From Macrocystis pyrifera (Eukaryota; Sar; Phaeophyceae; Laminariales; Laminariaceae): a stretch of DNA of 64,000 nt. The DNA lies in the NCBI GenBank assembly GCA_031763025.1, contig JASSKH010000009.1:1674001-1738000 (forward strand), read 5' to 3'. Under the pieces are notes generated by a model that saw only the letters and a program-made list of their open reading frames with translations, was not told the DNA's origin and made no database searches. Position 1 is the stretch's first letter; each line of letters starts with the position of its first letter. The translations under genes were made by a program, and so were the position numbers. Shown here in pieces: positions 8,030-33,100 of the stretch.

Positions 8030-9485
8030 GGTGGTCGAGACCTCGTGCTTGCTCTAGGCCCGTGAAACGAGCAGTCCCCAACGAGGTGCACCTTCTAGCC
8101 CACCGTACTTTTCAGGTGCATATAAACTCCCTCTGATCATTGTTCGCTAGAAGTCGTTCGGTTTCGGCGAGGTGCGCTTCGAAGTACGCGTGCAGTCCTG
8201 CGGCAATCACCTCATCCTGCAGGTTCGCACACGCAGATCTCTGTGTCTTCCACGCGGTTCTATCCCGGGGGTGGGTACGGAAAAAACTGTCGTGCGTTCT
8301 CCCTCGCTGTCCATGCACATATGAATGCGGCCAAGGTTTCGGCAGACTCACACCATCCATGTCTGCGGTGGTGACGTGGAGAGGGTGGTACCAGTTTTTC
8401 GACCGCATCAATAATAGACGTGATGAAAGACTTTACCATGCCAGACGTATTACGGTACTGGGATAAGTGTGAAGCGGGGCCCGCACGGTAGTGGTAAGGG
8501 TAAGGGACGCAGGTGGTTCTGGATAAGCTGGTTGAGAGTGAAACGACCCTCGCAACTACTTGTTGACGACACTTTTCATCGAACATAAACAGCTGCCTGT
8601 TGAACTCTCGGTGTTCTGGGGGTTTTCGTGTTTGTCTGTTCTGGGGGTTTTCGTGTTTGTCTGTTGGGTGCAAAGTGACCACCGAATCGGACTTTTATGG
8701 TAAACAAGATGTAGTCTGAGTCGGCCTTAGCTGGGGGCGGAGGCTGTAAGACGACTTTAACAGCATGTACTCTAGGCCGATGAGCTTGACGGGGTAGGAC
8801 GTAATCCATCCGCCTACGGTCTTTCGGGCTGGTGCCGTCGTGTGTATGTGATGTTCCACCCTTGCGCGTACTGAAAAACGAGTTGGTGAGAGCTAATTGC
8901 AATTGGTGGCGAACGACGGAAGTCGTTTGCCAGTATCGTTGCGACCATCACGTCGATATGCATGCTCCAAGCGCTCTACTTTCATCATCACCGCACACGT
9001 CTATCCTCTGCCCCCTTCGCGCGTTGTCATCCATCAGTGCAAAAAGGCCCTCTTTCGTCCGAATCTGTTCCACCAAGTCCTCCAGTTTCTGCCAGGAAAT
9101 ACGTTTCAGTTCGGCATCGTTGGTACAATCAGTTGGAGCATACGCGACGACGAAATTAACTGCCTCGCATTTACCAGCCAACTCAAAGCCCATAGAAATA
9201 AGCCATTCGTCAATAAACTGGTGTGTGTACACAGACTTACTGCACAACGATTCCTTGACAGCTAGACCTCCGTACAGCCCTTGCCCGGCAGCTCTTTTTT
9301 CCTGATCTTGAATAAAAAGCGCGGTACCATGCCGCACGGAACGTCGTGCTGCCGGACCTTCGAGTTTCCTGGAGGCCAATGAAGTCATAGCCGAGCTGCT
9401 GGCTCTTCTCCAGTACACGCTCGTCATGTCGGTACCCGTTGTTGCCTTATACAGCCAGGGTGCGCACAGTGTAGGTCGCTACCGC
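8030..9485 (-). pseudogene. LINE endonuclease (EEP family) and linker, decayed
   Basis: Minus-strand remnant of a non-LTR retrotransposon. The apurinic-type endonuclease begins near 9475 (TVRTLAV, then a TAA stop), followed by YDFIGLQETRRSG near 9385 with the catalytic Glu. After a frame change come VNFVVAYAPTDC near 9150 and FALMDDNARRG near 9030, which stands for the GDxNAR box. After another change comes RKGGTSHTHDGTSPKDRRRMDY near 8850, equivalent to the DxxD/H region. The part at 8411-8112 matches the linker between endonuclease and RT in this LINE group (AYFEAHLAETERLLANNDQ). No RT follows, so the copy is truncated. In life the enzyme nicks target DNA for target-primed reverse transcription. 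Confidence 0.8.
8613..8662. repeat. 25 bp tandem duplication
   Basis: The unit starting GTTCTGGGGGTTTTCGTG occurs twice in a row inside the LINE endonuclease remnant and adds to its frame damage. Confidence 0.85.
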
Positions 9486-10480
9486 CACAAGTGCCTCCTT
9501 CTTTTGTCTCTTAGGAGCCTCACGTGCTGCATTTTTTGCCAGACGACGTTAGGCTCGTTCCCGCCTCCTTTGTCGTTGTCTATTTTTATTTTTCTCTATG
9601 ACGACTGTGGCTCTCCGTGTAGCCCGGTACGCGCCTTGGTTTCCGTTGGCTGGGTGCAGCCGTCCCAGCCAACGCCGACACTCCCCTTCTTCCTATCGTG
9701 CATGCGTACCCACGCTGTGGCCAGCGTCTCCACTCCCCCGGTTGCCCTTGTGACGCTCTCTGCTGTGGTGATGTACTCGCCTCGCCTCAGGGATGAACTC
9801 CTTGGCGTCGGGGCTAAGAAGAAAAAGCACGCCCACCACCCCACGCGGTCCATAAAGTGAGCAGGCCACTAGCCAGACCGCGCAAGGTTTCCCCTCTATC
9901 CAGCCCGAGGCTCGATGCTCGTGTGACCGTCGCTAGACCGTTGCAGGTCCTGGCGGACTTCTTCGGCCAACCCCTGAAGAATACCTCGGAAAAATAAATA
10001 AATAAATAGGCAAAGAATAATACACGTGATAACTGGAGCACATCTACACCACAGACAAAAGTAGAAGTGGGGTCGGCGTACGTACGTATCAGTGACATGC
10101 CGTACGCTGTTCAAGTCGCCACAGAAACCGAGAAGACCGCATAGCTGTACCTCGTTTTGTATATGCATATATATTAGCGACTGGTCCCCGGCCGGGGTGG
10201 AGCTCCGGCCTGCGGCTTCCCCAACGCGTGCTAGAGCTCCCAGAGGAGTGCGGCCTTGACCTTGTGCGTCTAACTAGCGTTCGAGCATGGTCGAGCCGGC
10301 GGTAATAGCCAGCGACATGACGGAATTTTTCCTCTCGGAATTTTTCCACGCGGTAGTATTGCCTGCGGTAGCCGTATCGTATCGCCGTTGCGGAAGCGTG
10401 GAAAGTAGCGAACTGAGAAGAGAGGCTAGGACCCACGTGAGTAGGCACCCCATTCGGCGTCATCTAGGAGGTGATGGGCG
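9486..10480. other. LINE-flanking sequence with dispersed repeat R1
   Basis: No intact gene. The segment from about 9940 to 10150, read on the minus strand, is homologous to 27010-27200 on the plus strand (shared GTAGATGTGCT and TCGGTTTCTGTGGCGACTTG). R1 is thus a dispersed repeat, possibly the UTR of a retroelement. The rest is unassigned. Confidence 0.5.
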
Positions 10481-10926
10481 TTGAGGGCGCATTGGGATTG
10501 CTGCCCCCAGCACGTCGGAACCTCGGCACGAACCGGGCCGGGCAAAACAGCACGGAATGGAAGAAATCTACCGCCTGGTAAAGCGCAGAGAGTAGAAGAG
10601 AAAAAAAACGCGGCACGGAAGAAGCGGAGGCAAGGTCGGAAAAGTCGCAGAAAAGCTCGGAAGCTACGCTCAGATGCGAGGGCTGGGTTCAGAGCTGGGG
10701 AACTCGTCGTGAGTACATTCAACGTTCACACACTCGCCATCAACGGCAAGAACGGCATCGGTCACAGCGAGGTCATCATGAAGGTATGCCAGGAAATAGG
10801 GTGCGGGATCGTAGGTCTCAAGAGACTAGCGAGACGGGCATAGCACGTTCACAGCACCTGGATACACGATTTTTTGCTCTGGGGCAGACAGCAGCAAATA
10901 TGAGAGGAAGGGCACCCATGGTGTAG
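10481..10926 (+). pseudogene. LINE-A, 5' part with start of endonuclease
   Basis: A basic Lys/Arg-rich leader (about 10570-10680) is followed by the endonuclease N-terminus: VVSTFNVHTLAINGKNGIGH near 10710, then IGCGIVGL near 10800. A frameshift disrupts the QETRR block. The frame then reads PGYTIFCSGAD and KYERKGTHGV up to 10926, where the Gypsy element begins. The same frame resumes at 21805 with VGLAVRES once one GTAG copy is removed, which shows that the two pieces were one gene. Confidence 0.85.
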
Positions 10927-11447
10927 TGTTACAGCAAGGTACAGCTCTCAGACCCTAAAAAGGACCTGCACTCGTTAGATCTCTGAGGCCGGCTCACCTG
11001 TTGTTTGGGAGTTCGAGGAAGTGCCGTCAAGCAGTAATGATCGGGTCACGCAGAACGTGGATCGATGCAATGCGGTAGATGCAAGCAGTCAGCGTGAACA
11101 CTCAACGAAGAACCACAGACACGATGACGGGTACGACGGGCAAGGCAGGGCCCAAGGGGCTGGGGGTCGATAGGACAGGTATCACAACTCACTTGGCTTT
11201 GACTTTCTTTCTTCACGTGGTGGTGTTTTGTAAACACCGGGTGGTCCCGGAACCTCGTTACTGGCTCTGTACCCGAGACCGAAGGCGTTCCCACACCGGG
11301 GATCCTCCCTGCCCTTATAAGATCCGCCCAGAGGATGCTAACCAAAGCTTGCCCTCTGCCTGTTGAATAGACCCGACGCGTGATACTGATCAGAACAGCT
11401 GTCTCGCGCCGTATTATCCTCCTCGAAGCACTGCCGGCGCTGCAACA
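10927..11447 (-). repeat. Gypsy 3' LTR
   Basis: 521 bp, direct repeat of 21284-21804, with TGTTACAGCA and GCGCTGCAACA at the plus-strand ends. Some differences from its partner cluster around 11300-11380. Confidence 0.95.
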
Positions 11448-11458
11448 CCCCCCCTGCC
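11448..11458 (-). other. Gypsy polypurine tract
   Basis: On the minus strand a run reading GCAGGGGGGG immediately precedes the 3' LTR, the expected place for the primer of plus-strand DNA synthesis. Confidence 0.7.
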
Positions 11459-11599
11459 CGACGCAGCATGCGCCGGAGCAAAACGGGCCCCCCCAGCAGC
11501 CGAATGCTTCTTCTCTCCCCCCATGCTAATCGGCTCACCGCTTCCGTTCCCCGCCTGTTGCTGACGGGGGTCATCTCTGGCCCGCGGCGCTCCGGTGCT

Positions 11600-12265
11600 C
11601 CTCGACCCCGCGAGTCACTTCGCTGCGGTTAAGCTCCTCCTAATCTCCGACAGGGTATCTCACTCGCCAATACGGCTCCCTAAAGTCGTACACCTTTCCT
11701 ACCGCCGCTCGACTCACGCCATCAGCTCCAGCAAACGACCGCCTGACCTGTGTACCCGTCGGAAAGTCCTGCAGCGCTCTCGTTCGCAGCCCCTGGTCAC
11801 GCTCTTCCTTCGGTAGTGGTTCCGGCGGCCGGGGGCGGCAGTCCTTTCTCTTGTACACTTCCCAGAGGGCATGGAAGACGTCGAGTTGCAGAGGGGTGAA
11901 GCTGTCCCTTACTTCCTGTTCAGGTAGCCACTCTGACTCCACCCCACTTTGGTATCGGCCTCGGTACTGCCACTTCTACCCGGTCCCCGTGCTCTCCATG
12001 GCTCGCCGGTCCGTCAGGGTATAGAGCGGCACCGCCACCGTCGAGGTGTCTGCCAACCCCAAGCCCGCGCCCCATGCCAGATGCGCGAATTCGTCCTCGA
12101 AGGCATGGCGCAGATGCTCCGGCCGCACGTGAAATTCCTTAATGTTGGCAACCGAAACCGTTCTCCTCCGGGTCCGGCGGCCGCTCATTGTCGCCTGGTA
12201 GCTGATACCCGGCTGTGCAATGGCCGTCACCCGCTACGGCCCCGTCCAGTGTTCATGTGCTAGTT
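11600..12265 (-). pseudogene. pol: Gypsy Pol C-terminus: GPY/F-like domain and terminal module
   Basis: Downstream of the integrase core the frame reads KLAHEHWTGP, then a TAG codon (around 12237) where the GPY/F motif expects an aromatic residue, then RVTAIAQPGISYQATM. A further module follows (11942-11640) with GKVYDFREPYWRVRYPVGD, then another TAG where the pattern suggests Trp, then EELNRSEVT. GPY/F domains help integrase to multimerise and bind DNA. The WRVRY..GD.EEL module resembles chromatin-reader-like ends of some Gypsy integrases, but I do not assign a fold. The two in-frame stops make this copy non-functional unless read through. Confidence 0.6.
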
Positions 12266-12329
12266 TGACGTGAGTGTCCTCCCGCGCCATCTTGCTGTCT
12301 GTCTCCTTTACCAGCATCAGGTCTCCCAC

Positions 12330-13415
12330 TCATGCCCCTTCGCCTGGAGAGTGTCGCCTAATGGCCGCATTGTGGCGTACGCGTCGCTTGTTCTTGTCCT
12401 CCTGACGCTTCTTCAATATTGCCCGCAGTTCCATGAACGTCTGGTGTCTCTCCGCCACGAAATTGTCGAGCCCAGTGCGGAAATTTTCACCGTCCAGCGC
12501 AGGAGTAAGAGCATCCAAGTTTGTGCGCGCATCACGACCAAACAGAATCTTGAAGGGCGTCCCACCTGACGGGAGACGCGGGTCCGGCGTAGTCCTTTGA
12601 ATCCAGCAAGCCGCGCTTACATATTCGTCCCACCTTGCCGGCCAAGATTTGCAGAGCTCCGCCAAGACCTCCTGAAGCCACCCCCCCCATCCTTTCCCGG
12701 CTCCTTGACTACGAGGGTGGTCAGCAGGACCATGATCCAGCTCCACCCTCAGCCACTGGCGCAGGTGGGCGACTACCTTAGCGGTGAACTCCCCCCCGGC
12801 ATCGCTCCTAATCGACAGCGGCACGCCAAACGTGAGTAACAGCTCCAGGAGTTTCCTCGCTACTCCCACCGAATCCTTAGATTCCAGCGGGTACGCAAAC
12901 AGGAACCGGCTGGCCCGATCCACCACTACCAGCAGGTACCTATTCCCTGCGCTGGATACCTGCTTCATGTCCTGGAGGTCCATCTCAAGCACTTCCCAAG
13001 GCCACAATAACCGGGCAGGCATCATGGCCACGCGTTGGCTCGGGGCCCTTTTTCTCCTCCTGCAACCGCACGACAGTACGTACTCCCTGACGTCCTGGGC
13101 TACTGTCGGCCACCCGTACTTGCCCTTAATCAGCAGAAGGGCCCGCGCAACCCCCGGGTGGCCGTAGGTACTGTGCACGAGTGCCAGCACCCCTGGCACT
13201 AATGCTCTCGGAATGGCCAACTTCGGTGCCTCCCCCCGAGGCGCGCTCCACAATAAGTCGTTGTCGTCGAGAAAGTACTTCACCGTCCCTTCCGGTGACT
13301 GCCTGTCACCTCTTCCTCGCAATCTGCCCCAAATGAGGCCAAGTCGCGCGTCCTCCCGTTGCCGTTGCACCAGTCGTGGTTTATCACGCAGCACTTCCGC
13401 TACCTGGTCGACCAT
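12330..13415 (-). pseudogene. pol: Gypsy integrase
   Basis: Inserts the cDNA into the host genome. The N-terminal zinc-binding region is recognisable (HSTYGHPG followed by YVLSCGCRRRK, with the Cys pair in CxC rather than CxxC spacing). The catalytic core shows the first Asp in LEMDLQDMKQ, YLLVVVDRASRFLFAYPL, and the second Asp in SIRSDAGGEF. The block that should contain the third catalytic residue reads SQGAGKGWGGWLQEVL, with no Glu in frame. A Glu codon is present one frame away, so two compensating one-base indels in flanking G and C runs (12680-12705) seem to have removed it. The rest (TPFKILFGRDARTNLDAL) is typical. The frame is otherwise open for about 360 codons. This copy is probably inactive. 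Confidence 0.9.
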
Positions 13416-13460
13416 GGAAGGAAGGGGTCCCGGGTATTCCGAGTATTCCGCTCTCAGTGC

Positions 13461-14690
13461 TCACCGCCTCGGCTGGGGCTGTGCTCTGGACTGTGACGAC
13501 AGTGTGGGTTGTACGTGCGATGACGACGGCAGTGCTGACGGGGTCGACTGTGTAACAAGCGGCCTTGGCACCTGCGCATGCTGCTCTGTTGACTTTCCTC
13601 CCGCTACGCCCGCTCTGGACCTCGTGACCGCCGGCGTTACCTCGGCTAGGTCCTCCTCGAAGAGCGCCTGCAAGCCTTCCAGCGATTTAGTTCCGTGGAG
13701 CTGTCCCCCCCTGGCTTTGTCTATCAACAACCCCTTTGCCCACAACCCCGACAAGGCCTCTCTCGCTATAGGTGGCAATGAAAAGTCCGCCAATATCGCG
13801 GCCACTGCTCCCCTGCTGACGGTTGGGGGCACTCGGTAGTCCGCTCGTCCGTTGGCGAGTATCTTGTATACCGCAAAAGTCAGCTTGTCTGCTTGGTCGA
13901 TATCGCTTGCGTCCGAGGGGTGCGGTTTGTACGTTCCTTCGGGGGGTTTTTCGCCCATGATGTGCGTTCGAGTGATGGAAATGATTGGATCGTCAAAAGA
14001 AAAGACCCCCCTCTCTTCCACGCCTCGCTTGAGGAAGTAGGTTCCCCTCCTCCCCAAGAACCTACCTAGAGATGTGCACCCTGAGTCGCGCCTTTCTATA
14101 TCCCTCCTCCACTCCCTTAGCCTCTCACCTTCTCTTTCGGGCCTCCCGCTCCTCACGCCGACAGCGAACGCCTTCCTCTTCCCCGACGGAACCCCCACGA
14201 TGTCCGCCGCCATTTGGACTGTCTCCACCGTACACGCCGCTTCCTTCAACGCAGGCAGCACTACCTGCCCCCACTCCGTCGATCGAAGTAGATTCGGGTA
14301 GCATTCCAGCAGGAGAACCCTGGCCGTCGAATCGATGAAGGCCCTCACGATATTCGTTGCCAAGGTTGCTGCTCCACCGGGCCCCCGCTGGCCTGACTTT
14401 CAGGATGCATCTCCCATCACGACGCTCGGGCTCAGGTCGTTCAAGAGCCTTTTGCAATCTTCCCCCCGTGGTTCCGCTCTCACCAGTCGAACTCCTTGGT
14501 CCACCCCGTTCTCCCTAACACACTCGAGCGCTCTCCAGTCGTGGTCGGTGGCACCCTTGACTGCGACCATTTCCTTCGCCGCCATGAGACCACCTCCCCC
14601 CCCGCAGCAGAGCACCACGGCGACTGGATGCTCCTCGGCTGCGGACGTTGTGGCGGCTCTCTCAGTGTCTGCGTCGACGGCTCTGCCTGG
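13461..14690 (-). pseudogene. DNA cytosine-5 methyltransferase domain inside Gypsy pol
   Basis: This domain sits between RNase H and integrase. Motif I-like: VAVVLCCGGGGGLMAAKEM (from about 14624). Motif II-like: ATDHDWRALECVREN. Motif IV region: LSPSVVMGDAS, then TGA (14400-14402), then KSGQRGPGG in the same frame. Motif VI-like: VLLLECYPNLLRS (Glu at 14304-14306). Motif VIII-like: GVPSGKRKAFAVGVR (about 14195-14150). A later segment with DDPIISITRTHIMG and YKPHPSD could correspond to motifs IX/X. C5 methyltransferases transfer a methyl group from S-adenosylmethionine to cytosine using the motif IV Cys. The TGA lies exactly where that Cys would align, so the copy is either nonsense-mutated or recoded. 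The frame continues open to 13461 with a Ser/Pro/Gln-rich tail. Retrotransposon-borne methyltransferases are known from dinoflagellates and a charophyte alga. The motif order supports the call, but only a profile search can confirm it. Confidence 0.72.
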
Positions 14691-15799
14691 GGTAAAAATT
14701 ACGCTTGCCGCAACCGCCGCGTTTTTCCCCGTTGGCTTGTTCACCTCATCTGCCCCCAGTTTGCTGAGCAGTACGCCGTCGAGCACCGGTCCCTTGGGGC
14801 CCCGGTACGTGGTCCTCGTGGAGGGATCGTGTGGGAATGAGTCATCGATGTCCATGCGCGGCGCGTCGTTCGGCGGTAGCCTCGAGAGGGCGTCCGGCAG
14901 CTGGTGGTTTGCCCCGGTCGCCACTGGAGGTCGATGTCATGCTCCATCAATCTGAGCGCCCACTGGTGGAGTTTCGACGAGAGGGCCTGGCTCTTGAACA
15001 GCCACGTGAGCGCGGAGCAGTCGGTGAACAGAACGAATCTCCTTCCCCACAAATACGGTCTGAAATGCTGGATGGCCCACAACACTGCCATCACCTCTCG
15101 TTCGGTTGCGGACCGTTTGGCATCCACCCTTGACCACCGGTGGCTCGCGTATCCAATGACACGTTCCTCTCCCCTGGTATCCTGCGTAAGCGCCGCTCCC
15201 GCACCCAGCTCGCTGGCGTCCGTATGCAGTTGAAACGTGGCCTCCCAATTGGGCAACGCCAAAATCAATGGCGATGTGAGGAGCTCGATCAGCGCCTTCA
15301 GGGCCTTGTCCTGCTCCACCCCCCACGGCACCCGGAGCCTCCTTGCCTTTTTTGACGCGAACCGCTTGTCCCGGAGCAGGTCCGAGATAGGCGCCACGAT
15401 CGAGCTGTATCCGGGCACAAACTTCCTGAGGTAGCTGCCCATGCCCAAAAGTGACCTGACCTCCTCCACAGTGTTAGCACGAGAGAGTCTGGCCTCCGCT
15501 TCTATCTTCGTTTTTGACGGTTGTACGCCCAGTCTGCTGACAACCATGCCGACGAACTCCTGCTGCGGAGCGCACCAAGTCGATTTGGCCAGGTTCACCG
15601 ACAACCCAAATTGCTGGAGCCGCGCCAGCACCTTCTCCACCAGGCCCACATGTCCCTCGACGTGTTTGGTGTGGATGATGATGTCGTCAAGCCAGTTCTG
15701 TGCGTCTTTTCCTTTTAGCGGACCCAGAGCCTCCCCCACGTAGGCCGCAAAGTCGGAAGGAAGGGTCTCAGCCCAAAACCGCACCGGTTGAATTCCCAC
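14691..15799 (-). pseudogene. pol: Gypsy reverse transcriptase C-terminus and RNase H
   Basis: The frame contains the RT catalytic box as WLDDIIIHTKHVEGH (two Asp retained, first position Leu), SVNLAKSTWCAPQQEFVGMV, and the thumb/connection LLGMGSYLRKFVPGYSS. RNase H follows with FQLHTDASELGAGAAL, ATEREVMAVLWAIQHF and FTDCSALTWLF, giving the expected D, E, D order. The DALSRLP end of RNase H lies in an adjacent frame (ORF from 14924), so there is a frameshift near 14900. RNase H degrades the RNA of the RNA:DNA hybrid. After DALSRLP a linker of about 80 residues leads into the methyltransferase. Confidence 0.92.
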
Positions 15800-16520
15800 A
15801 GCTCCCCGTGGGCGTCACGAAATGCGGTCTTGTGCTTGTCTTCCTCGGCAATTTCCAACTGGGTGAAACCTGACGCTAGATCAATGGACGTGAAGCACGT
15901 GGCGCCCCTCATGTTGTCGAAGATGCTTGCGATATCTCCCAGCCCTCCGCTATTGGACTCCAGCAACGCTTTCAGCCCTCGATAATCCTGGCAGACCCTC
16001 GCCGTGCCATCCTTTTTTGCCACAACGACGCAGTTTGCTGCCCACGCTGACTGCGACCGGCGAATCGTCCCTGCTTTCTGTTGCTTCGCCTCCTCGCTCT
16101 GGATCATGGCCGTTTCCTCCGGTGAATACCGTCGCTGTTTGCTGCGTGGGGCGTGCAACTGTTGTCAGTCAGCGGAAGCTGCAACTTAGCTCGATTGCAG
16201 GCCGGGACAATCTTCGGGTTCACCGGGAACACATGGCGGTACTTCTCCAACGCTCGAATCAGGGCTTCCTTCACTGGGGCACTCGTCTGAGCGTTGTTGG
16301 CCAACGACAAGTCCACCCCGTCGGCGTCCGCCCCCTCACCCGCGCGTTCCTCCGGCGCCGCCAATACTGACTGTGCCTTCATCTCCGATGTGTCGTCTGC
16401 CTGCACGACGGGGTCTAATAGCATCCGCATACGTTCCTTGTCCCTCGTATTGAGGGCGTAAATCCGAGCAACGACCCCGCCCTGCTTCAGTGCTAAGGGT
16501 ACTTTTGAACGGTTCACCAC
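15715..16520 (-). pseudogene. pol: Gypsy reverse transcriptase N-terminal part
   Basis: Two overlapping frames. The first (from 16520) carries the protease-RT linker with ALIRALEKYRHVFPVNP. The second (from 16158) carries the RT fingers and palm: WAANCVVVAKKDGTARVCQD, YRGLKALLESN, and CFTSIDLASGFTQLEIAEED with the first catalytic Asp. Frameshifts near 16150 and 15790 separate these from the neighbouring parts. The function is copying element RNA into cDNA in cytoplasmic particles. Confidence 0.9.
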
Positions 16521-16550
16521 CTTGCACTGGAGCGGCGTTCCGGGGTGCCA

Positions 16551-18083
16551 CTACTGCGCCCCGCGCGCGATCCCCAACTCTTCCCCCGTCTCCATGTCGT
16601 ATGAAGCCTTCGGTTCAACTACCACCAGCTGCCTGTCTTTGGGTTGGACTCCCTTAGCATAAGCGTCCACCTGCGCGCTGACGAAACCCGGTACCACCGT
16701 ATGTCGGGCTGGACGTAGTTCCCACTGTAGGGTGCCATCGTCCTCCCAAGCCGCTGAGCCCTCGCTGAGTTGTGTGAGCGGCTCGGTTTTTTCCGCCGGC
16801 TCTCCCTCTCCACAGGGTGGCTTGACGGCGCAAAATTGCTCCCACGTTGCCGTGTTCCTGGTCGCCACTGGCTCCACTTCTGCTCTGCTCGGTTGGACAG
16901 ACGCATGCCAGCTCACCGGCTTCCGCTCCGCCACCTTTGACGAGGAGGCTCCTCCTGTTGACGAGATGAAGGGCACCCAAGGTGACTCTGGTGCCGGTTT
17001 GAAACCTCCCCCGGCCGCGAAGCTGATAGTGCTGCCATTCTTTCTCAGGAACGCTGCTCCTATGATAAGGCCGTACGGGAGATCCTCCACCACCCGCACC
17101 AGTACCTTGCGCACCCTGTCCTCCGGGCTGAACACCAGCGGGAGCTCGCACGATCCGGAAATTTTCATTGGCGGGACTGCGCTGTTCGTGGGGTTGGCTG
17201 CCCTCAACCACCCCTGTCCCCTCGGACTCATCATCGATTGCCCCCCCCTTCCACTGCGTTCGACGGAGCGTACGAATGCCGCGGAAGAGTAATTTCCACC
17301 CCCTGCCTCCGTGTCGACCAGCACCTCCACAGGAATGCGGCAACTGGTTCTGGTGTGGTGCCACACGAATGCGCGCACCCACACCTGCTTAGCCTCCGCT
17401 CCCACGGCCGCCACGCTGCTTGGGGTGTCCACATCTAGAGCGTTCAACGCGAAGTTGCTGTACTGCTGCGCCGGGACGACCTCGTCGTTGTTAGCGCCCC
17501 CCCCGCCCTTTGTCGAAGCGGCGTCGTAGGTGCTGCGTCTCTCCTCCTCTTCCTCCCGACCCCGCGTTTGTTGCTCACTTTGGTTGCTGTTCCCCAGGAG
17601 AGAACCTCCTGGGGCGCGTCTTCCGGCCCGCAAGACACGCGAGGCGCCTGCGGCGGCCCCGCCCTCCTCGGCCGTGTGCGCGCTCAGCATTTCGAGTGCC
17701 GTAAACATACCAGGCTCTAGCTGCAGAGCTTGCGTCGGAGTGGTCTTGCGGGGGTACAATCCGTACGGCACGACGTCCTCGTCGTGCGAGAAGCGGCACC
17801 TTCCTCCACCGGCACTCTTGTGGGGGCAGTCGGAACCCCTCGCATGAAAAAAGCAGACCCTTCGCTGGCGCAAGGCGTCGATCACCTTGTCTTCGGCATC
17901 CGGGCTCGGTAGTTCGTCCCATTCCTCCCTGCGGTCCGTTGTTTCTCGGTTCCTACTGCCCGGGCGATCGTTTCTGTCACCTTTGCGGCTTACAAACGGG
18001 GTTCCATGTGCACCCGGGGTGGAAGCGCGGACGTTGGAAAAGGACGCGACGTTTGGGTGATCGTCGACAGCTTCCTCCTCCAC
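16551..18083 (-). CDS. pol: Gypsy CCCH zinc-finger and aspartic protease ORF
   Basis: 510 codons. Residues 77-100 hold a CCCH-like zinc finger (C-x8-C-x9-C-x3-H: VCFFHARGSDC...CRFSH) in place of the usual CCHC knuckle of Gag. An acidic/Gly-rich linker follows. At about residue 253 the protease starts with VEVLVDTEAGGGNYSSAAF. The family needs D-T/S-G and here the third residue is Glu (codons 17307-17315), one G-to-A change away from Gly. The distal protease motif is intact (YGLIIGAAFLRKNG at about residues 340-355). The protease cleaves Gag-Pol, and this version is likely dead. The frame is otherwise open, with no internal stop, which makes it the best preserved ORF of the element. The start is the ATG at 18083, but a fusion with upstream Gag is possible. 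Confidence 0.8.
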   Translation of the reverse strand: MEEEAVDDHPNVASFSNVRASTPGAHGTPFVSRKGDRNDRPGSRNRETTDRREEWDELPSPDAEDKVIDALRQRRVCFFHARGSDCPHKSAGGGRCRFSHDEDVVPYGLYPRKTTPTQALQLEPGMFTALEMLSAHTAEEGGAAAGASRVLRAGRRAPGGSLLGNSNQSEQQTRGREEEEERRSTYDAASTKGGGGANNDEVVPAQQYSNFALNALDVDTPSSVAAVGAEAKQVWVRAFVWHHTRTSCRIPVEVLVDTEAGGGNYSSAAFVRSVERSGRGGQSMMSPRGQGWLRAANPTNSAVPPMKISGSCELPLVFSPEDRVRKVLVRVVEDLPYGLIIGAAFLRKNGSTISFAAGGGFKPAPESPWVPFISSTGGASSSKVAERKPVSWHASVQPSRAEVEPVATRNTATWEQFCAVKPPCGEGEPAEKTEPLTQLSEGSAAWEDDGTLQWELRPARHTVVPGFVSAQVDAYAKGVQPKDRQLVVVEPKASYDMETGEELGIARGAQ

Positions 18084-18199
18084 CTCCTTCCCCTCTTCCT
18101 CCTCGCCCTCAGAGGATAATTCCCCGTCTACCAGCCAGCGCCGCGCACGCGCTGTCCCGGAGCACCTCTACCTTCTTCCTCCATGCCTTGGGTAGTTCC

Positions 18200-19480
18200 C
18201 TGGTGCGCGGTTTACATCTTTCCTCCCATTATTCCCTCGACGGAAACCCCCTCGTCTCGTTCTGCCCCAGGGGCAGCCGCTGACTCTGTGCTAGCCCCGC
18301 TACGCTGCCTCGGCTCCGTCCCGTCAGGGGTGTCGCGGCTAGGGGGTAACGACTGCACCGGGTGAGCAGTGCATTGATCAAGCCGTAGAATATGCCGTGA
18401 GAGACTTCTCCGCGGTGTACCATGTACGGATTCAGAGGTTTACCGGCGTCCACGTGTACCGGAGTGAGATATTACTTAGCCTCAGTTCCCACCTGGATCA
18501 GGAGCGATCGGAGGCGCTGGTAAAGAATAGATTTACCGCTCGTTCACAGAGCTCCGCCACCTTCCTCCCCGACACGTACCTCCAAAAGTGGAGTTCTTCC
18601 GACGTGTGCGGCCTCGCCTCGTCTGCTGTTGCCGCGCGAACATGCAGCACCAGCCGGCGGGCTGCGGCCATCCACGACTCCCCTTGGATAAGCTTTATCT
18701 CCGTGAGTGCCGCCTCAGCCCTCTTCTGCGCCTGCCCTGAATGCGCTACCTCGGCTACCAGGATCCGGCACCACTCCTTGGTCGTGACTTCCTCGAAGGG
18801 AATGTGGCAAAACCCCCCTTGTACGAGAGGTACCTCCACCGTAGAGTGCGGGCGCATCAGATCGCGTGTCGCCAGGGTGTCCGCGATGAGCTTTCCAAAG
18901 CACTCGACTCTCCACGGCGTCAGCCTATCTGCTCGGGGCCGGGCAGGATTGATCCCATCGGTGGAGAACTGGTCTTGGGGCATGGCCCACGCCGCCCCCT
19001 CGAACTGTGACCTGATCTTAGTAAGCTTGTCGACGAACAGCATTGGATTGTTCCTCCATGAGAGCTCGCCCTGCGGTGCCGCAACCAGTCCCACGAAACC
19101 ATCTTGGCCTTTTATCAGTCCCATGTCGCCTACGATCTTGCTCACGACCCTTTGGGCCTCTTTCGAACTGCTGGGTTCCAATGCCCACAGGTGGGTTGTG
19201 GTCTGCGGCGGTGCTACCCCCGTCGGTTGGGGTGTCTGTGCGTTTTGGCTCGACTGCCATATCCAGGGGATAGGACGGGGGCAGTGCTGGTATCGTGCTC
19301 CATGCTGCCCGACGTATGCTGATGGTGCGGGCTGAGGCTGGCGTAACGTTTGCGCCTGGGGCACCTGCGCGGGCGAGTAGTGTGCGCAGGAATACCCCCC
19401 CCCCCCTCATGTTACCCAGACTCCATGGATGCGCTGCGTAGCCAATCGGGCGTGGTGCCAGGCTTGTTGCCGGTGCCGGG
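18200..19480 (-). pseudogene. gag: Gypsy Gag capsid region
   Basis: A long minus-strand frame (19364-18498) follows a Gln/Pro-rich start. The capsid-like part has WRNNPMLFVDKLTKIRSQFE, WRVECFGKLIADTLATRD, IQGESWMAAARRLVLHVRAA and ELHFWRYVSGRKVAELCERA. The helical pattern ending in an FWRYVSGRK-type block is typical of Gag capsid C-terminal domains. The frame then shifts near 18490, and the Gag C-terminus (GIFYGLINALLTRCSRYP) is readable in another frame to about 18230. A 13-base G/C run at 19397-19409 causes a further shift from the upstream domain. The product would form the intracellular particle. Confidence 0.75.
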
Positions 19481-20381
19481 CGTAGGGGCTACGCCGACAC
19501 CTGTTGTTGCTGGTGCTGCTGGTGCTGCTGGTGCTGCAGCTGCTGCAGCTGCTGCTGTTGCTGTGGCAGCTGCTGCCTCTGTTGTGAGAGCGACGACGGC
19601 CGTTCCCTTTGATGTTCTGGCGACGGGGACTGTTGCTGGCTCCGTACTGACCTCCCCTTCTTGCTGCGGCGGCGGCTCTCCCGGGGTGCACTGCCGTGGC
19701 TGCTGTCCTGGCTACGGCTGCGACGGCGTTCCTTGTGGTCGCGGCCGCGACTACGGTGGCGGCTTCGTTCCTTGCTGTCGCGGTTGCGGCCGTGGTGACG
19801 ACGACGGCGTTCTTGGCTATCGCGGCTGTGGCCACGGTGGCCGCTGCGTTTTTTTGCCGTCGCTGCCCCGGCCCCGGCGGCTGCGGCGCTCGCTGCTTTC
19901 GCGGCTACGGCTGCGTCGGCGTTCCTTGTGGTCGCGGCCGCGACTGCGGTGGCGGCTTCGTTCCTTGCTGTCGCGGTTGCGGCTGTGGTGACGACGGCGG
20001 CGTTCTTGGCTATCGCGGCTGTGGCCACGGCGGCCGCTGCGTTTTTTGCCGTCGCTGCCCCGGCCCCGGCGGCTGCGGCGCTCGCTGCTGTCGCGCCACT
20101 CCTGCCCGCTGCTAGAGCGGTGGCCACGGCTACGGGGACCGCTGTCCTCCCGCTCCTGGTCGCAACCACGGCCGTAGTTGCTAGATGGGTAGGGTTCGCC
20201 CATGCCCCCCCCTCCTACGCTGTGGGCGCGTTCGCGAGGATGACCGCTTTGCTGCGGTTACCACCGCGGTCCTGGTCGTTGTCGCCCCCCCGTCGCTGCT
20301 GCTACGAAATGGTTCGTCGCCCCGCGTACTGCCTCCTTCACCGGAACGGTCGTCCTTGTTGGTGGCGTGGCGGTCGTCCAT
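19480..20381 (-). pseudogene. gag: Gypsy Gag N-terminus: Arg/Ser-rich domain and polyglutamine
   Basis: From the ATG at 20381 the product starts MDDRHATNKDDRSGEGG, slips in a G run near 20205, and continues as an extended Arg/Ser/Glu-rich domain (RSRRGRGSDGKKRSGRRGHS and similar) down to about 19690. It contains a 64-residue tandem duplication (192-193 bp, for example GTTCCTTGTGGTCG at 19728 and 19921). The two copies differ by one T in a poly-T run, which shifts the frame. A Gln-rich tract follows (about 19500-19590, CAG/CAA-type codons). RS domains are typical of splicing factors and nuclear-speckle proteins. In a Gag such a domain could bind RNA or direct the protein to the nucleus, which is inference. 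Confidence 0.7.
19690..20095. repeat. 193 bp tandem duplication in gag
   Basis: Two adjacent copies, period 192-193 bp. They match over nearly their whole length, including TGGTCGCGGCCGCGACT and GGCTATCGCGGCTGTGG. Confidence 0.9.
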
Positions 20382-21265
20382 GTTTCTCCAATTTCCTTCC
20401 CTTTCCTTTCTGCGGTCTGCTGTACGTTTTACCCTGTGTGTACGCTCGGGGCATTGTATGACCGCACAGAAAAAGGGGAAGGACACATGTATCTGGCTGT
20501 ATTTTGAACATAGATTCACATACGGTCAGCATCGTTCACAGCCCTTGTGTTGTTTGAGATTGTCTGCGTGTCAGGTGTACAGACTTGTCCTGAAAAAAAA
20601 AATAGTGTTAGTGTTTTGAAATTCTTGGTCCATGCTTGGCCTGAAAGCGAGTTACGTGTTCGTCAAAAAATGTGTTATAAATGACCTCGCTCTTGGACGG
20701 CATCAGTACAGCAATAGGTTCTACATGATTAGTTACCGGTGTCACCTAACCCGGGCGAACATCATACGAGACTATGCGTGTATCAGTACGTACGGCGCCT
20801 GTGGTCTGTCGACACCTGTCGTGTGCATTTGTTTTTGAAGATGATATGTGGTCAATAGCATGCAGTCATCTATTAACGAACGTGCATGTGTGTGAACATG
20901 AACAATGAGCAGGCAAACGAGCACGGGCAACAGGCAGACGGAGCACGAGCAACGAGTATGCCTGCATGCATTGACCGAGCACATATCTTCAAAGCAATAC
21001 AGAACGAACAGGCGAAGTGCCACTTGCAGCGTGCACACATAACAGCATTGCAAGTATGGCCATAATGCCAGGCGGGCGAAACGAAAACATGCGGGTTTTC
21101 ACATGCATACGAATGTGAGTACAAGAGTGTATATGACTAATATACGAGATCAATGTGAGGTGACGCATGAACATGCATGATAGCATCATTTCCCCGATTT
21201 TGCAAAACTCTTCGGGTCCCCTGCAATCGTTTTGCAGACACTTCGATCTCCTGCAATGCACTTCG
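20382..21265 (-). other. Gypsy untranslated leader
   Basis: About 880 bp between the primer binding site and the gag ATG. Only short unrelated frames are visible. Near 21225-21275 the phrase CACTTCGATCTCC(C/T)TG occurs twice next to the primer site. Confidence 0.6.
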
Positions 21266-21283
21266 ATCTCCCTGGGTTCGCCA
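21266..21283 (-). other. Gypsy primer binding site
   Basis: Directly after the 5' LTR the minus strand reads TGGCGAACCCAGGGAG, the TGG-start expected for pairing with the CCA end of a tRNA. Its complement ends CTGGGTTCGCCA. I cannot name the tRNA with confidence. Confidence 0.8.
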
Positions 21284-21804
21284 TGTTACAGCAGGGTACA
21301 GCTCTCAGACCCTAAAAAGGACCTGCACTCGTTAGATCTCTGAGACCGGCTCACCTGTTGTTTGGGAGTTCGAGGAAGTGCCTTCAAGCAGTAATGATCG
21401 GGTCACGCAGAACGTGGATCGATGCAATGCGGTAGATGCAAGCAGTCAGCGTGAACACTCAACGAAGAACCACAGACACGATGACGGGCACGACGGGCAA
21501 GGCAGGGCCCAAGGGGCTGGGGGTCGATAGGACAGGTATCACAGATCACTTGGCTTTGACTTTCTTTCTTCACGTGGTGGTGTTTTGTAAACACCGGGTG
21601 GTCCCGGAACCTCGTTACTGGCTCTGTACCCGAGACCGAAGGCGTTCCCACACCGAGGATCCTCTCTGCCCCTATAAGATCCGCCCAGAGGATGCTAACC
21701 AAAGCTTGCCCTCTGCCTATCGAATAGACCCGGCGCGTGATACTGATCAGAACAGCTGTCTCGCGCCGTATTATCCTCCTCGAAGCACTGTCGGCGCTGC
21801 AACA
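21284..21804 (-). repeat. Gypsy 5' LTR
   Basis: 521 bp, direct copy of 10927-11447, about 97-98% identical by eye. It ends AACA at 21804 and is followed by the target duplication GTAG. Confidence 0.95.
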
Positions 21805-22435
21805 GTAGGACTAGCTGTCAGAGAGTCTATTGTGGCAGGAGTGGGCAAAGATGGCCTCGTGGTGGAGTGCGATAAAACCAGACTGATGAAAGTTCGCATT
21901 CAGCTCCAGGGCAAGTCGAATGGTGTTTCTTTAGTTGTCGGTTATGCGCCTATACTGGATGCACCCGTTTGCGAGAAAGATCACTTTTGGAACGAACTAA
22001 ACAACGTCGTCTCGGGGAGCCCTCAGTGAGGATCACCTACTTGTGCTCGGGGATGCGAATGCTCGCACCGGCAAGCGAGAGAGCGGATGTGCCGGCAGTA
22101 AGATGATGGGCAAATACGGGCGCGATGAATTGAACAACAACGGAGAGAGACTACGCCTCCACGCAGCTGACTACAGGCTTGCGCTACTCAATACGTTATT
22201 TGCCACACCTACTCGCGGGGTGTCGTACACTTTCGAATCTCCCAACTCTGGGAAGGGTCAGTGTAGGCTACTACTACATCCTTACTCGACAAGTTGATTG
22301 ACGCCTGCTTCGCAACATGACAGTACAGAAACCACCAGAGGATCGGCATGAATCTCACCACAACCGCGTGGTCTGCAGTATTCGCCTCTTGGGCTGATTT
22401 GTGCCGAATCGTAGGGTGAAAGCAGGCCGGTGGTC
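21805..22435 (+). pseudogene. LINE-A endonuclease, second part
   Basis: The frame continues from 10926 with VGLAVRESIVAGVGKDGLVV, SLVVGYAPILDAP near 21935, then after one frame change LVLGDANARTGKRESG near 22045 (GDxNAR catalytic box), YGRDELNNNGERLRLHAADY, and SYTFESPNSGKGQCR near 22225. This is the C-terminal half of an exonuclease-endonuclease-phosphatase domain of a LINE. It is interrupted at 22436 by the GGAAGT foldback element. Confidence 0.88.
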
Positions 22436-28084: not shown

Positions 28085-30137
28085 TGTCGGTGCTACAGCA
28101 GTAGACCATGCAGCAGTGACGGCGCTGCTACAGAAGAGCATGTAGTAGCTAGCGCTGAGTAGAGGTTCGGGGAGAGTAAAAGCCAGGGCTTTTCGCGGGT
28201 CAGGTCAAACCTCACGGGTCGGGTCGGGTCGAGTCGGGTCAGCGGATCCTACCCGACCCGCGAAAAAATTGAGGTGTGTTGACTTGACCTGACCCGAACC
28301 GCGAGATTTTGAAAGCCTCTTACTCCGACCCGATCCGACCCGAGAGATTAAAAAAAACTATAGACCCGACCCGTGAGATTTGAATCGAATCTCCTGACCC
28401 GACCCGACCCGACCCGCGAGATTTTATAACCTCCTGACCCGACCCGACCCGACCTGCCACCTCCGGATTGACCCGTGAGACACGGTTTTCACTCGGGTCG
28501 GGCCACCTTGGCCGGCGAGACCATATATCTTGACCCGCAGGTTCGACCTGCGGATCCGGCCCATGAGTCGACACTTTAAAAACAATGCAATATTCAATTT
28601 TGTGCCCCGCAGCGGTGCATGACCTGGCTGTAGTGGGTATGGATGGATGCGGGCATGCGTATATGGATTTGGGGGTGTTTAAATGTTTGAATGTGATACT
28701 AAAGGAGTATTATTGAGTATTGGTACGAGGGAAGCCTTTGGGTAAGAGAGTAGAAAGTGTTTCAAGTGTCGAGTCCGCGAGCCGGATGCGCGGGTCCGAC
28801 CCGCGGGTCAGCAGAAAACAAGTCGCGGGTCATGCTGGCCCGACCCGCGAGTGACCCGTTTCTCGCGGGTCATGCCCTGACCTGATTATCATCAGCTCTT
28901 GACCCGACCTGGCCCGACCCGTGATATTTGAAAACTTCTTGACCCGACCCGACCCGACCCGACCTGACCCGATCCGTGAGATTTGAAAAAATCTCTTGAC
29001 CCGACCGGGCCCGACCCGCGAGATTTGAAAACCTGTTGACCCTACCCGACCCGACCCGACCCGATATACATTTTGAACACCCCGTGACCCGACCCGCGGG
29101 TCAGGTCTAACCTCACGGGTCCCGACCCGACCCGCGAAAAATTTGAGGTGTGTTGACTATATCAGACCCGACCCGCGAGATTTTAAACGTCTCGTGACCC
29201 GACCCGACCCGACCCGACCCGCGAGATTTGAAAATCTGTTCACCCGACCCAACCGACCCGTGAGATTTCAAAACCTCCTGACCCGACCCGATCCGACCCG
29301 CCACTTTCCCAGTGACCCGTGAGACACGGGTTTCATGCGGGTCGGGTCATCTTGACCCGCGAGACCATTTTCTTGACCCGCAGATTCGATCCGCGAATCC
29401 GGCCCGTGGGTCGACACTTCAAAAACAAAATTAATACTCATTTTGGTGCCCTGCAGCGATATGTGGCCTGGCTGTGATGGGCATGGATGGATGTGGGCAT
29501 GCGCATATAGATTTGGCGGTGTTTTGGTGTTAGAATATGACACCAAAGGAGTATTATTGAGTACTGGTACGAGCGAAGCCTTTGGGTACGAGAGCGGGAA
29601 GTGTTTCAAGTGTCGAATCTGCCAGCCGGATGTGCGGGTCCGACCCGCGGGTCAGCAGAAAACAACTCGCGGGTCATGCTAGCCCGACCCGCGAGTGACC
29701 CGTTTTTCGCGGGTCGTGACCGTGAGCTTCTCATCAGCTCTTGACTCGACCTGACCCGACCCGTGAGATTTGAAAAATTCTTGACCCGACCCGACCCGAC
29801 CCGTGAGATTTGAAAAACTCTTGACTCGACCTGACCCGACCCACGATATTTAAAAACCACTTGACCCGACCCGACCCAACCCGTGAGATTTTGAACACTT
29901 CCTGACCCGACCCGACCTGACCCGTGACATTTTGAACACCCCGTGACCCGACCCGTGGGTTGGGTCATGACCCGCGAAAAGCCCTGGTAAAAACAGAATG
30001 AATTATTATCTCACAGTACAAGTGCGTCGAAGCTGCCTGTGCTGACGGTTTCATATTCAAGCAAACCGCCATCCATACCATACAGTACAAAACCTAATGT
30101 CCTATTGAGTCGTTCTTGCACTATAAATATCCTGACA
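28085..30137 (-). repeat. Copia 3' LTR, split by a hAT-like insertion
   Basis: LTR parts are 28085-28183 and 29995-30137 (about 242 bp in total). They align collinearly with 38704-38951 (for example GCGCTGAGTAGAGGTTCGG and GCGTCGAAGCTGCCTGT). The break holds the element 28184-29986. Confidence 0.88.
28184..29986. mobile_element. hAT-like non-autonomous element, tandem dimer of GACCCG words
   Basis: The ends read CAGGGCTTTTCGCGGGTCA and its inverse TGACCCGCGAAAAGCCCTG, a CAGGG-type hAT terminus. The flanks are GTAAAAGC (28176-28183) and GTAAAAAC (29987-29994), an 8 bp duplication with one mismatch. The sister LTR at 38.8 kb has the empty site (GTGAAAAC). Inside are dense GACCCG repeats with CGAGATTTGAAAA spacers. 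Two head-to-tail units of about 900 bp are visible (junction near 29087), each with a central unique part containing GGTATGGATGGATG-like sequence. There is no transposase. Confidence 0.88.
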
Positions 30138-33100
30138 TGTCCTCTCAAGAACTACTTCATACCAGTTCGTATTCACGTGATCCAACTGAGTACAGTAGGA
30201 CAGCTCTTTCGATCTTGAAAACACAAATAAATACCATCAACAACCAGGGTCAAGTCCTCCGTGTCTTATATTCTCATGACGTGCAACGATGACAGTCATG
30301 AAGGCCTTAGTTCTACCAACCGTATCCCTGGTTGGGAGCACCCTGTCCAGAAACCCTTCGCGCGTGCCATCACGCCTGACAAGCCTACGACCGCCTCCCT
30401 CACTACCTCGATGGATGATTGTTTTGGGCATGTGTCGTGCGCCCTCGCAGGCGGAGCCACAGTACCGGAGGCGTTCACGCTCCTCCTGAGGTTTCTGAGC
30501 AACCACTTCAACCCCACCGACACGGGGGCTAGCTACACTAAGTTGCATATGGCGTGTCTTACGGAACCCCTTTTTGCGGTTTTAGTCGGGAGTTTCGAGA
30601 GGTAGTGTCGGCAGCGATGAGGACTGAACGTGTTTTGGCACCGAGGGTGGAGGTCATTTTGGAAGTGGTTCGGATGGCAGTTAACGAGCAGTACCCCAGC
30701 TTGGTGCCCACACGCTGTACCCGAGGGTTTTGGTTATCGTATCGAGGCCTTTCGGTACTTTGGACGCCATGTGATTGGCTTTAGAGACTCTTGCGAACAC
30801 TAAGACACCTGCAATCGAAGTCGAAAAAAACAAATTGCCTGCTTCTTCGACGGGTGCGCGGTCATCCGCGGGGGCCCGGCCCGCCAGTAATGGTCGCGGC
30901 CAGGGCCGGACGCTTTCCCGGTGGCCTTCATGGCAGACGGGATCACTCAACAATCCGTTTCTGATGAACGTCAACAAATCCATCCCTGACTGCCTCGAGT
31001 CGTCATTTGACACGTCTTGCAACTGCTGGCTCCTAGACGAACACCGCAACGCTGAAGTTCATGTCGTTTGCATGTCCATCCAGACCGATGACCCTCCCCT
31101 CTGGAGCGGCTAACTATTATCGTCCGCTCGCGCCACCGCACTCAGCGAATACCGAGGCCACTGTCTAGACTGCCACGAAGGGACACACTCACTCAGACAG
31201 TGTAGACACCCCTTCCAAAACCTTAGCGCCATTTTGAACCCGACCTCGGAACGCTCGGCGACGACGGCGAGGTGTCCCGACGTTTGCAAGAATGCATGAT
31301 CCGACACCGCCGCGAGAACAAGTTCTCACGATCGAACGGACAGCAAAACCAGAAAAAACAAAAAGCGTCGCTTCGGCCACTCGCGTGGGCAGCACCACAA
31401 CCAGGGCCAGCAGAACAGACAAAGCGACGACAACACACACGCGGAACGAGGATACCAGCAGTCTAATTCCGGCCATCACGGCGGTGGTCCGACCGCCCCC
31501 GCCCCTTCTAACCTGGCGGAAACCCGAATGGACTCCAGCCAGGCATCTTCCGTGCCGGTAACTCACAGGTCGACGGTGGTACAGCCCCTCCCGCCCGTCC
31601 GCCGTTAACATTGCCGGGAGAAAAAATATTGATTTCACAAGGTGCTCGTGTCCCAGGCTCGCCCAACGCTCAGCGCCAACCTGCCCCAAACGAGCCCCGC
31701 ACGTTGCCCCGTACTTCGGACCGACGCAGCGACCCAGCCTCCCTTGTTTCACCGGAGAGCCCCCCGGCGTCTCCCCCGGCGTCTGGGGCCCGCGCCTCAA
31801 ACGCCGCTCCCCTCAGCCTGTGCACGAGAGTAGGCGCGTCAAACGCCGCTCTCCCAAGCCACGCACCACGCACCACCTTGATTGTCGCCCTGGCGTGTCG
31901 TTTTTTTTCAGCGAGGGTGTCGACCTCCTTGACCTCCCGGCCATGCGGTGGCGGTCGGTTTGAGGCGCGGGAAGGCCGACACCGAAACCTCGAGAGCTTG
32001 GTTGAAGCTCGACTCGGCGTTTCCTCGCAATAACGGTGGCCGCGCTACCCTTTTTCCTATCAAGGAGGAGTTGAAAAGTTAGCTACCTCGTTCCCCTTCC
32101 CCACAAGATCTACATGAAGGAAGTCCTCTCCGGTCGACACTTTGTTGCCACCCACCCGAACCCCGTTCTTGAAGTCATCTACAGGGTCTGCTGGCCCTCT
32201 TATGTCTTCGCCGCACGCTACTCCACGTGCGCCGCGCTCCTTCGGCTCCAGTGGAACACGACAAACCTGACACTGCCCGTCGAGCCAGTGGTGACTCCAT
32301 GGCCTCCGGTCAAATCAACCGGACGGCAAACCCGTTAAAATCGGAAGAATCGCAGCTCTCGTCAAGCAGAACGGGCTCAAAGCCCCCGCCCCCCTTAGTA
32401 TTTGACCGTACTCTCGAGTATTCAACGGAGCGGGTGATACTGTTCTGGCAGCCTCCTGTGTTTCGCAGTGGTCTCCCTCGTCTTGCGTATTCAACGATGT
32501 GTCATATTCCTGCGCAGAGCACTATAAGATGGCTGAAAAGGCTCGCTTTTTTCAGAACCACGGCGCAGCGGAGCGGATTATGTCCCCGCCAGACCCACGC
32601 GAACACAAACGTATCAGTCGAGGCGTGCATAATTTCCAGGGCTTTTCGAGGGTTAGGTCAAACCTCACGGGTCGGGTCGGGTCGGGTCACCCGATCCGAC
32701 CCGCGGAAATTTGAGGTATGTTGACTTGACCCGTCCCGACCCGCGAGAGTTTGAAAACCTCTTGACCCGACCTGACCCGACCCGCGAAATTTACAACGTT
32801 GTTGACCCGACCCGACCCGACCCGTGAGATTTGAAATCTCCTGACCCCACCCGGCCCGACCCGCGAGATTTCAAAAACATCTTGATCCGACCCGACCCGA
32901 CCCGACCCGCCACCTTCCTATTGACCCGTGAGACACGGGTTTCATGCGGGTCGGGACCTTGAGCCGCGAGACCGTTTATCTTGACCCGCAGGTTCGATTC
33001 GTGGATCTGGCCCGTGGGTCGACCCTTCAAAAAACAATTCAATATTTGTTTTTGTGCCCCACAGCGATGTATAGACTAGCTGTAGTGGGTATGGATGGAT

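Follow-up and report, generated by a model that had tools for sequence, protein, structure and literature searches.

The 64,000-nucleotide stretch of Macrocystis pyrifera DNA analysed here (assembly GCA_031763025.1, contig JASSKH010000009.1, positions 1,674,001 to 1,738,000; hereafter the window) contains, on the minus strand at 10927-21804, a long terminal repeat (LTR) retrotransposon with the Ty3/gypsy domain order of reverse transcriptase, RNase H and integrase, LTR ends of TG..CA and a short target-site duplication. Within its pol gene lies a further domain, at about 13647-14636, that resembles C5-cytosine methyltransferases and lacks the PCQ tripeptide of motif IV. The domain is flanked by RNase H (PF17917) on one side and by the zinc-binding domain (PF17921) and core (PF00665) of integrase on the other, and these matches, together with the DALSRLP end of RNase H, bear out the neighbours that a preliminary description of the locus had named for a cytosine methyltransferase in this part of pol. 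The segment given there, 13461-14690, was too wide, as 13461-13646 is linker and lies outside the methyltransferase-like domain. It is probable that the pol gene of a Ty3/gypsy lineage, itself probably brown-algal, holds a C5-cytosine methyltransferase domain with RNase H on one side and integrase on the other. The features of this region are as follows.

14942..15244, minus strand: RNase H domain (PF17917, E 2.1e-30)
14874-14894, minus strand: DALSRLP, end of RNase H, placed in the window copy
13647..14636 (about), minus strand: C5-methyltransferase-like domain without PCQ (AlphaFold2 model of a sister copy with Foldseek/VIA, hhalign, motif order)
14586..14624, minus strand: motif I-like, G-rich loop of the S-adenosylmethionine (AdoMet) site (alignment)
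14505..14552, minus strand: motif II-like block TDHDWRALEC..NG, well conserved across lineages
14403..14426, minus strand: motif IV-like block, without PCQ in the copies and relatives read
14400..14402, minus strand: in-frame stop codon in the window copy (read from the sequence)
14286..14315, minus strand: motif VI-like block, Glu retained (E in 38/45 rows; hhalign register)
14157..14195, minus strand: motif VIII-like GVPSGKRKAFAVG (hhalign, alignment)
13848..13889, minus strand: motif IX-like block (hhalign pairing with the Dcm motif IX stretch)
13743..13796, minus strand: motif X-like block (hhalign pairing with the Dcm motif X stretch; modelled helix 294-307)
13050..13214, minus strand: integrase zinc-binding domain, H2C2 (PF17921, E 3.9e-10)
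12717..12995, minus strand: integrase core (PF00665, E 7.6e-11)

Homology to C5-methyltransferases

The motif-like blocks follow the C5-methyltransferase order on the minus strand. Blocks I, II, IV, VI and VIII, which had been listed at the outset, do occur in that order, and IX- and X-like blocks lie beyond these five; the part of the claim that failed is a functional motif IV, PCQ being absent from copies and relatives. Relatives that keep the domain were found, and its structural blocks are conserved in relatives sharing 31-43% identity with the sister copy. In the alignment used for residue counts (A7), the glycine of motif I is retained in 20 of 24 rows, the Asp and Asn of motif II in 25 of 28 and 28 of 29, and motif VIII has Pro in 38 of 41 rows and a basic residue in 40 of 41.

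Profile-profile comparison of the family with 43 Dcm-type proteins by hhalign gave a score of 34.4 (E 0.001), which was reached by none of the 198 usable column shuffles (of 200), the best of them scoring 28.3. The AlphaFold2 model of the sister-copy domain matches C5-methyltransferase structures in Foldseek/VIA, with DNMT2 structures at Foldseek ranks 2, 4, 5 and 7, among the best rows, and bacterial DNA enzymes and DNMT1 about equally good, so that the structure rows do not discriminate among donor classes such as Dnmt3; one of the matched structures, 3ubt, is by its title a Cys-to-Ser mutant of M.HaeIII solved on DNA. At the level of model and profile, the predicted fold of the domain is that of a C5-methyltransferase. 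Simpler searches were less telling, as Pfam gave no C5-methyltransferase match on the window pieces, relatives P0028, P0029 and P0046 match PF00145 below its cut-off, and a four-row profile run against the sequences of solved structures returned two matches only (E 0.73 and 1.8), neither of them a methyltransferase. The profile hit to which the preliminary description had looked for confirmation is missing from Pfam (window pieces and three copies) and from NCBIfam (two copies), and homology is supported by hhalign and the structure matches, which overturn this null result as a test of homology.

The motif IV site

C5-methyltransferases use the cysteine of the motif IV PCQ, and in the Dcm set P176, C177 and Q178 are invariant. 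At the corresponding place most copies of the element have GDASR and one has GDTSR. Serine occupies the site in 64 of the 66 genome loci read, a set in which L035-L064 largely duplicate L003-L032, and in all 30 distinct copies (L003-L032, the window copy included). In alignment A7, 43 of the 45 rows have a letter in the motif IV Cys column, comprising 33 Ser, 3 Cys and 7 others. PCQ itself is found in 0/45 alignment rows and in 0/130 homologous proteins, many of which are fragments without this region. Either the cysteine was replaced by serine or the PCQ loop was lost, and the predicted nucleophile is absent both ways in the sequences read.

Two further candidates were rejected. A displaced or permuted PCQ was ruled out, as none occurs anywhere in the 130 proteins (many of them fragments), and PCQ-bearing subfamilies in the genome were not found, the six low-identity copies fetched (L065-L070) being degenerate members of the same family with Ser in four of the six. 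Among the relatives, those bearing Cys (GDACR or GHACR; P0028, P0046 and P0075) form a sister lineage, possibly closer to the ancestral enzyme, and P0011, P0072, P0080 and P0105 have a shortened motif IV loop (IGNVEPGES-like). In viral contigs, 15 pattern matches included no relative of the domain.

Copies, selection and traces of methylation

The genome searched comprises 537 Mb in 223 contigs. A DNA search in which 40 of 112 candidates were scored, and which thus gives a lower bound, recovered the window copy at 100% and others at 91-96% identity, and a protein search that scored 108 of 273 candidates gave at least 118 matches at 58-100% identity. Of the 30 fetched copies, three (L014, L022 and L027) have an open frame over the full 4.5-kb piece. 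One of these was extended to 1,940 open codons and matches reverse transcriptase, RNase H, integrase and, weakly, Tudor, and the other two have open frames of 2,019 and 1,782 codons. As judged from the open frame, the methyltransferase-like domain is translated within Pol, as had been proposed.

Purifying selection across sister copies was assessed by the ratio of non-synonymous to synonymous differences (pN/pS) between stop-free copies of equal length. The domain core, compared in 17 of its 18 stop-free copies, has a ratio of 0.54, and the C-terminal part of the domain, with 18 of 19 copies, one of 0.60. Reverse transcriptase-RNase H also stands at 0.60 (14 of 15), and lower values come from the linker, 0.42 (19 of 20), and integrase, 0.38 (10 of 11). 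A neutral star-shaped simulation of the core gave a median of 0.78, and 6 of the 200 runs reached 0.54 or less, so that the observed value lies only weakly below neutral. Within-genome pN/pS alone is weak evidence, and the conservation of structural blocks in relatives is stronger.

Singleton transitions among 30 copies affect 45 of 280 CpG sites vs 132 of 765 other C/G sites (Fisher p 0.71), and the CpG observed/expected ratio is 0.95 within the element vs 1.01 elsewhere in the window. The copies carry no trace of CpG methylation decay, a result that covers lasting marks in CpG context, as distinct from short-lived marks on cDNA.

DNA methylation in the host group

Brown algae are reported to lack DNMT1, DNMT3 and DNMT5 and to have no DNA methyltransferase (DNMT) beyond DNMT2, while the outgroup Schizocladia is described as having DNMT1 and high 5-methylcytosine (5mC) (PMC13076208); for Ectocarpus, negligible 5mC is reported (PMC12477816). 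A PF00145 search of the present genome, blind to the domain of the element and able to miss other divergent genes, matched only two exon-sized pieces, both on one contig (C193), whose best sequence match was to DNMT2 structures. The EsV-1-7 motif family (PF19114), described as expanded in brown algae and patchy elsewhere, viruses included (PMC7457493), gave 150 scored matches, all above cut-off, from 1,584 first-look candidates (several motif repeats per gene), a finding taken to point to a brown-algal host. No PF19114 match was found in 14 control genomes, where the controls named are prokaryotes and little is said about other algae.

Other features of the element and the window

The remaining parts of the element were placed as follows.

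21284..21804, minus strand: 5' LTR, 521 bp, TG...CA (blastn against the other LTR)
10927..11447, minus strand: 3' LTR, 521 bp (blastn against the other LTR)
10923..10926, no strand: target-site duplication GTAG, 4 bp, left copy (read beside the LTR end)
21805..21808, no strand: target-site duplication GTAG, 4 bp, right copy (read beside the LTR end)
21265..21283, minus strand: putative primer binding site, starting TGG, just inside the 5' LTR (read from the sequence)
11448..11459, minus strand: putative polypurine tract adjoining the 3' LTR (read from the sequence)
17625..18543, minus strand: gag-like open reading frame (ORF), two frame pieces in the window copy (tblastn with the sister-copy ORF upstream of pol, 86 and 93% identity)
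14912..17363, minus strand: N-terminal part of pol, three frame pieces in the window copy (tblastn, 95-97% identity to a sister copy; RVT_1, RT_RNaseH)
11607..11750, minus strand, approximate: Tudor-like C-terminal Pol domain (PF21743 on the sister pol ORF)

The two LTRs are identical at 508 of 521 positions without gaps by blastn (Kimura two-parameter distance 0.0255). The window copy is broken, with the in-frame stop in the methyltransferase-like domain and shifts of frame in other parts of gag and pol. The N-terminal part of pol holds a protease-like region, recognized by eye, followed by reverse transcriptase and RNase H. The gag-like ORF has no Pfam match and is called gag by position only, and the Tudor-like matches on the sister pol ORF are sub-threshold (E 5.3e-4, 20.2 bits against a curated cut-off of 27.2, and E 0.012).

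Near the gag-pol border, at ~17770-17880 on the minus strand, a zinc-finger-like motif of CCCH type, CFFHARGSDCPHKSAGGGRCRFSH, was noted by eye; the knuckles of gypsy elements are usually CCHC. At 19658-20043, in the interval from the 5' LTR to gag, 193 bp are directly duplicated (86%), within sequence that translates into arginine/serine-rich repeats in one minus-strand frame. ORF pieces at 8948-9478 (minus) and 10475-10843 (plus) lie beside the element and resemble, by eye, endonuclease regions of non-LTR retrotransposons, and imperfect repeat arrays with GACCC units at ~40 bp spacing occupy 28267-33530 in two clusters (~28-30 kb and 32.7-33.5 kb).

A proposed binding module in Pol

The most likely explanation is that Pol contains a catalytically dead methyltransferase fold, a pseudo-enzyme whose role is to bind nucleic acid, and perhaps AdoMet as well. 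The element would have captured a C5-methyltransferase whose methyl transfer, to judge by the residues at motif IV, was later lost; since the fold is kept and the motif IV nucleophile is missing, the domain would be dead as a catalyst. Made within Pol, it would bind nucleic acid, perhaps with AdoMet, and methylate nothing, a mode of action with which the Cys-to-Ser M.HaeIII mutant on DNA (3ubt) is consistent. With RNase H and integrase as its neighbours, the domain would probably act on the cDNA or in the integration complex, where it may contribute to integration. The presence of a Tudor-like tail makes a part in target choice plausible, and the domain may assist that C-terminal tail in holding or aiming integration.

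A number of observations weigh against this interpretation. The hhalign probability for the family against the Dcm-type set is only 21%, and with shallower alignments the comparison loses significance (E 0.68). Even at E 10, no C5-methyltransferase match was found by Pfam in three copies and no match by NCBIfam in two; PF00145 is absent in 7 of 10 relatives of one set and 6 of 6 of another. The model is unreliable over residues 194-293. A low-confidence hhalign path sets the motif IV block just after PCQPFS, which leaves the register ambiguous, and Cys stands in the motif IV column of P0028, P0046 and P0075, so that activity elsewhere in the lineage is possible. To these may be added the weak departure of the core from neutrality and a mention of early-branching brown algae that encode DNMT1 (PMC12344493).

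Among the alternatives, it is unlikely that the domain is a DNMT2-like pseudo-enzyme directed at RNA, binding the element's genomic RNA or its tRNA primer while reverse transcription takes place; the high Foldseek ranks of DNMT2 structures suggest it, but bacterial DNA enzymes and DNMT1 match about as well. Decidedly unlikely is a passenger in decay, a mere spacer in pol whose function went when the host lost 5mC, as the near-neutral pN/pS of the core and the lost catalytic loop would suggest, since relatives at 31-43% identity retain the same structural residues and the pN/pS resembles that of reverse transcriptase-RNase H. Very improbable is the self-methylation of element DNA put forward in the preliminary description, in which an active DNMT methylates the element's cDNA or its genomic copies, as has been suggested for KnitGypsy-Dnmt3 and SymbioDIRS-Dnmt3: the fold, the motif VI Glu, the basic residues of motif VIII, the Cys of three relatives and the precedent of active retrotransposon DNMTs (PMC5890265) speak for it, but PCQ is absent from the copies and relatives read, CpG transitions are not raised, and brown algae are reported without DNMTs beyond DNMT2, with negligible 5mC in Ectocarpus.

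The dead, nucleic acid-binding fold also admits a bolder extension, to which we would give somewhat less than an even chance. The captured methyltransferase may have become a purely binding Pol module in hosts without cytosine methylation, forming with the Tudor-like tail a two-part device that reads chromatin and DNA for integration, and would then be a fossil of a lost brown-algal 5mC system.

Relation to known elements and significance

Capture of a DNMT by Gypsy pol is already known from Klebsormidium nitens, and this precedent, cited from the start, holds (PMC5890265). As described there, KnitGypsy-Dnmt3 likewise carries a cytosine methyltransferase inside the Pol ORF of a multicopy LTR Gypsy element, but it is a Dnmt3 with conserved key residues, a Ka/Ks below 0.2 and a host with 5mC, whereas PCQ is missing here and the host group is reported without 5mC. 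SymbioDIRS-Dnmt3 and SymbioLINE-Dnmt of Symbiodinium are also retrotransposon-borne DNMTs; they belong to the DIRS and LINE classes and keep their key residues, and de novo CG methylation is shown for the DIRS type (PMC5890265). According to a general statement in a review, Ty3/Gypsy and DIRS elements that encode DAM/DCM occur in Stramenopiles, a group that includes brown algae; the statement specifies neither methylase, element nor species and describes no dead catalytic centre (PMC6338049).

Within brown algae, Gypsy-10_Ec32 of Ectocarpus is a Gypsy element whose Pol carries a Tudor domain at its C-terminus, and it has a relative in Tribonema minus; its description mentions no methyltransferase-like domain, and the comparison with the sister pol and its sub-threshold Tudor match is by description only (PMC12477816). 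Kinship of the present element to that Tudor-bearing lineage is plausible from the domains predicted. The ParB-methyltransferase gene of Sola1-1_Ec32 likewise places a DNA methyltransferase on a brown-algal transposon, in that case as a separate gene of a DNA transposon with a predicted N4-cytosine or N6-adenine type (PMC12477816).

For the proposed non-catalytic role, DNMT3L may serve as a functional analogy, being a mammalian host gene with a non-catalytic DNMT fold that acts as a binding partner. In the open-licence PMC literature, exclusive of supplements and Repbase, no report was found of a PCQ-less methyltransferase-like domain in a brown-algal Gypsy element, and what appears new here is the PCQ-less form, common to relatives, in a lineage reported without 5mC. 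A survey reports no brown-algal DNMTs beyond DNMT2 (PMC13076208), yet many copies of this mobile element carry a DNMT-derived domain, one that Pfam fails to recognize in this family. If binding is indeed its function, the domain would separate two proposed or possible roles of retrotransposon DNMTs, methylating and gripping, and would offer a natural case in which only gripping can operate.
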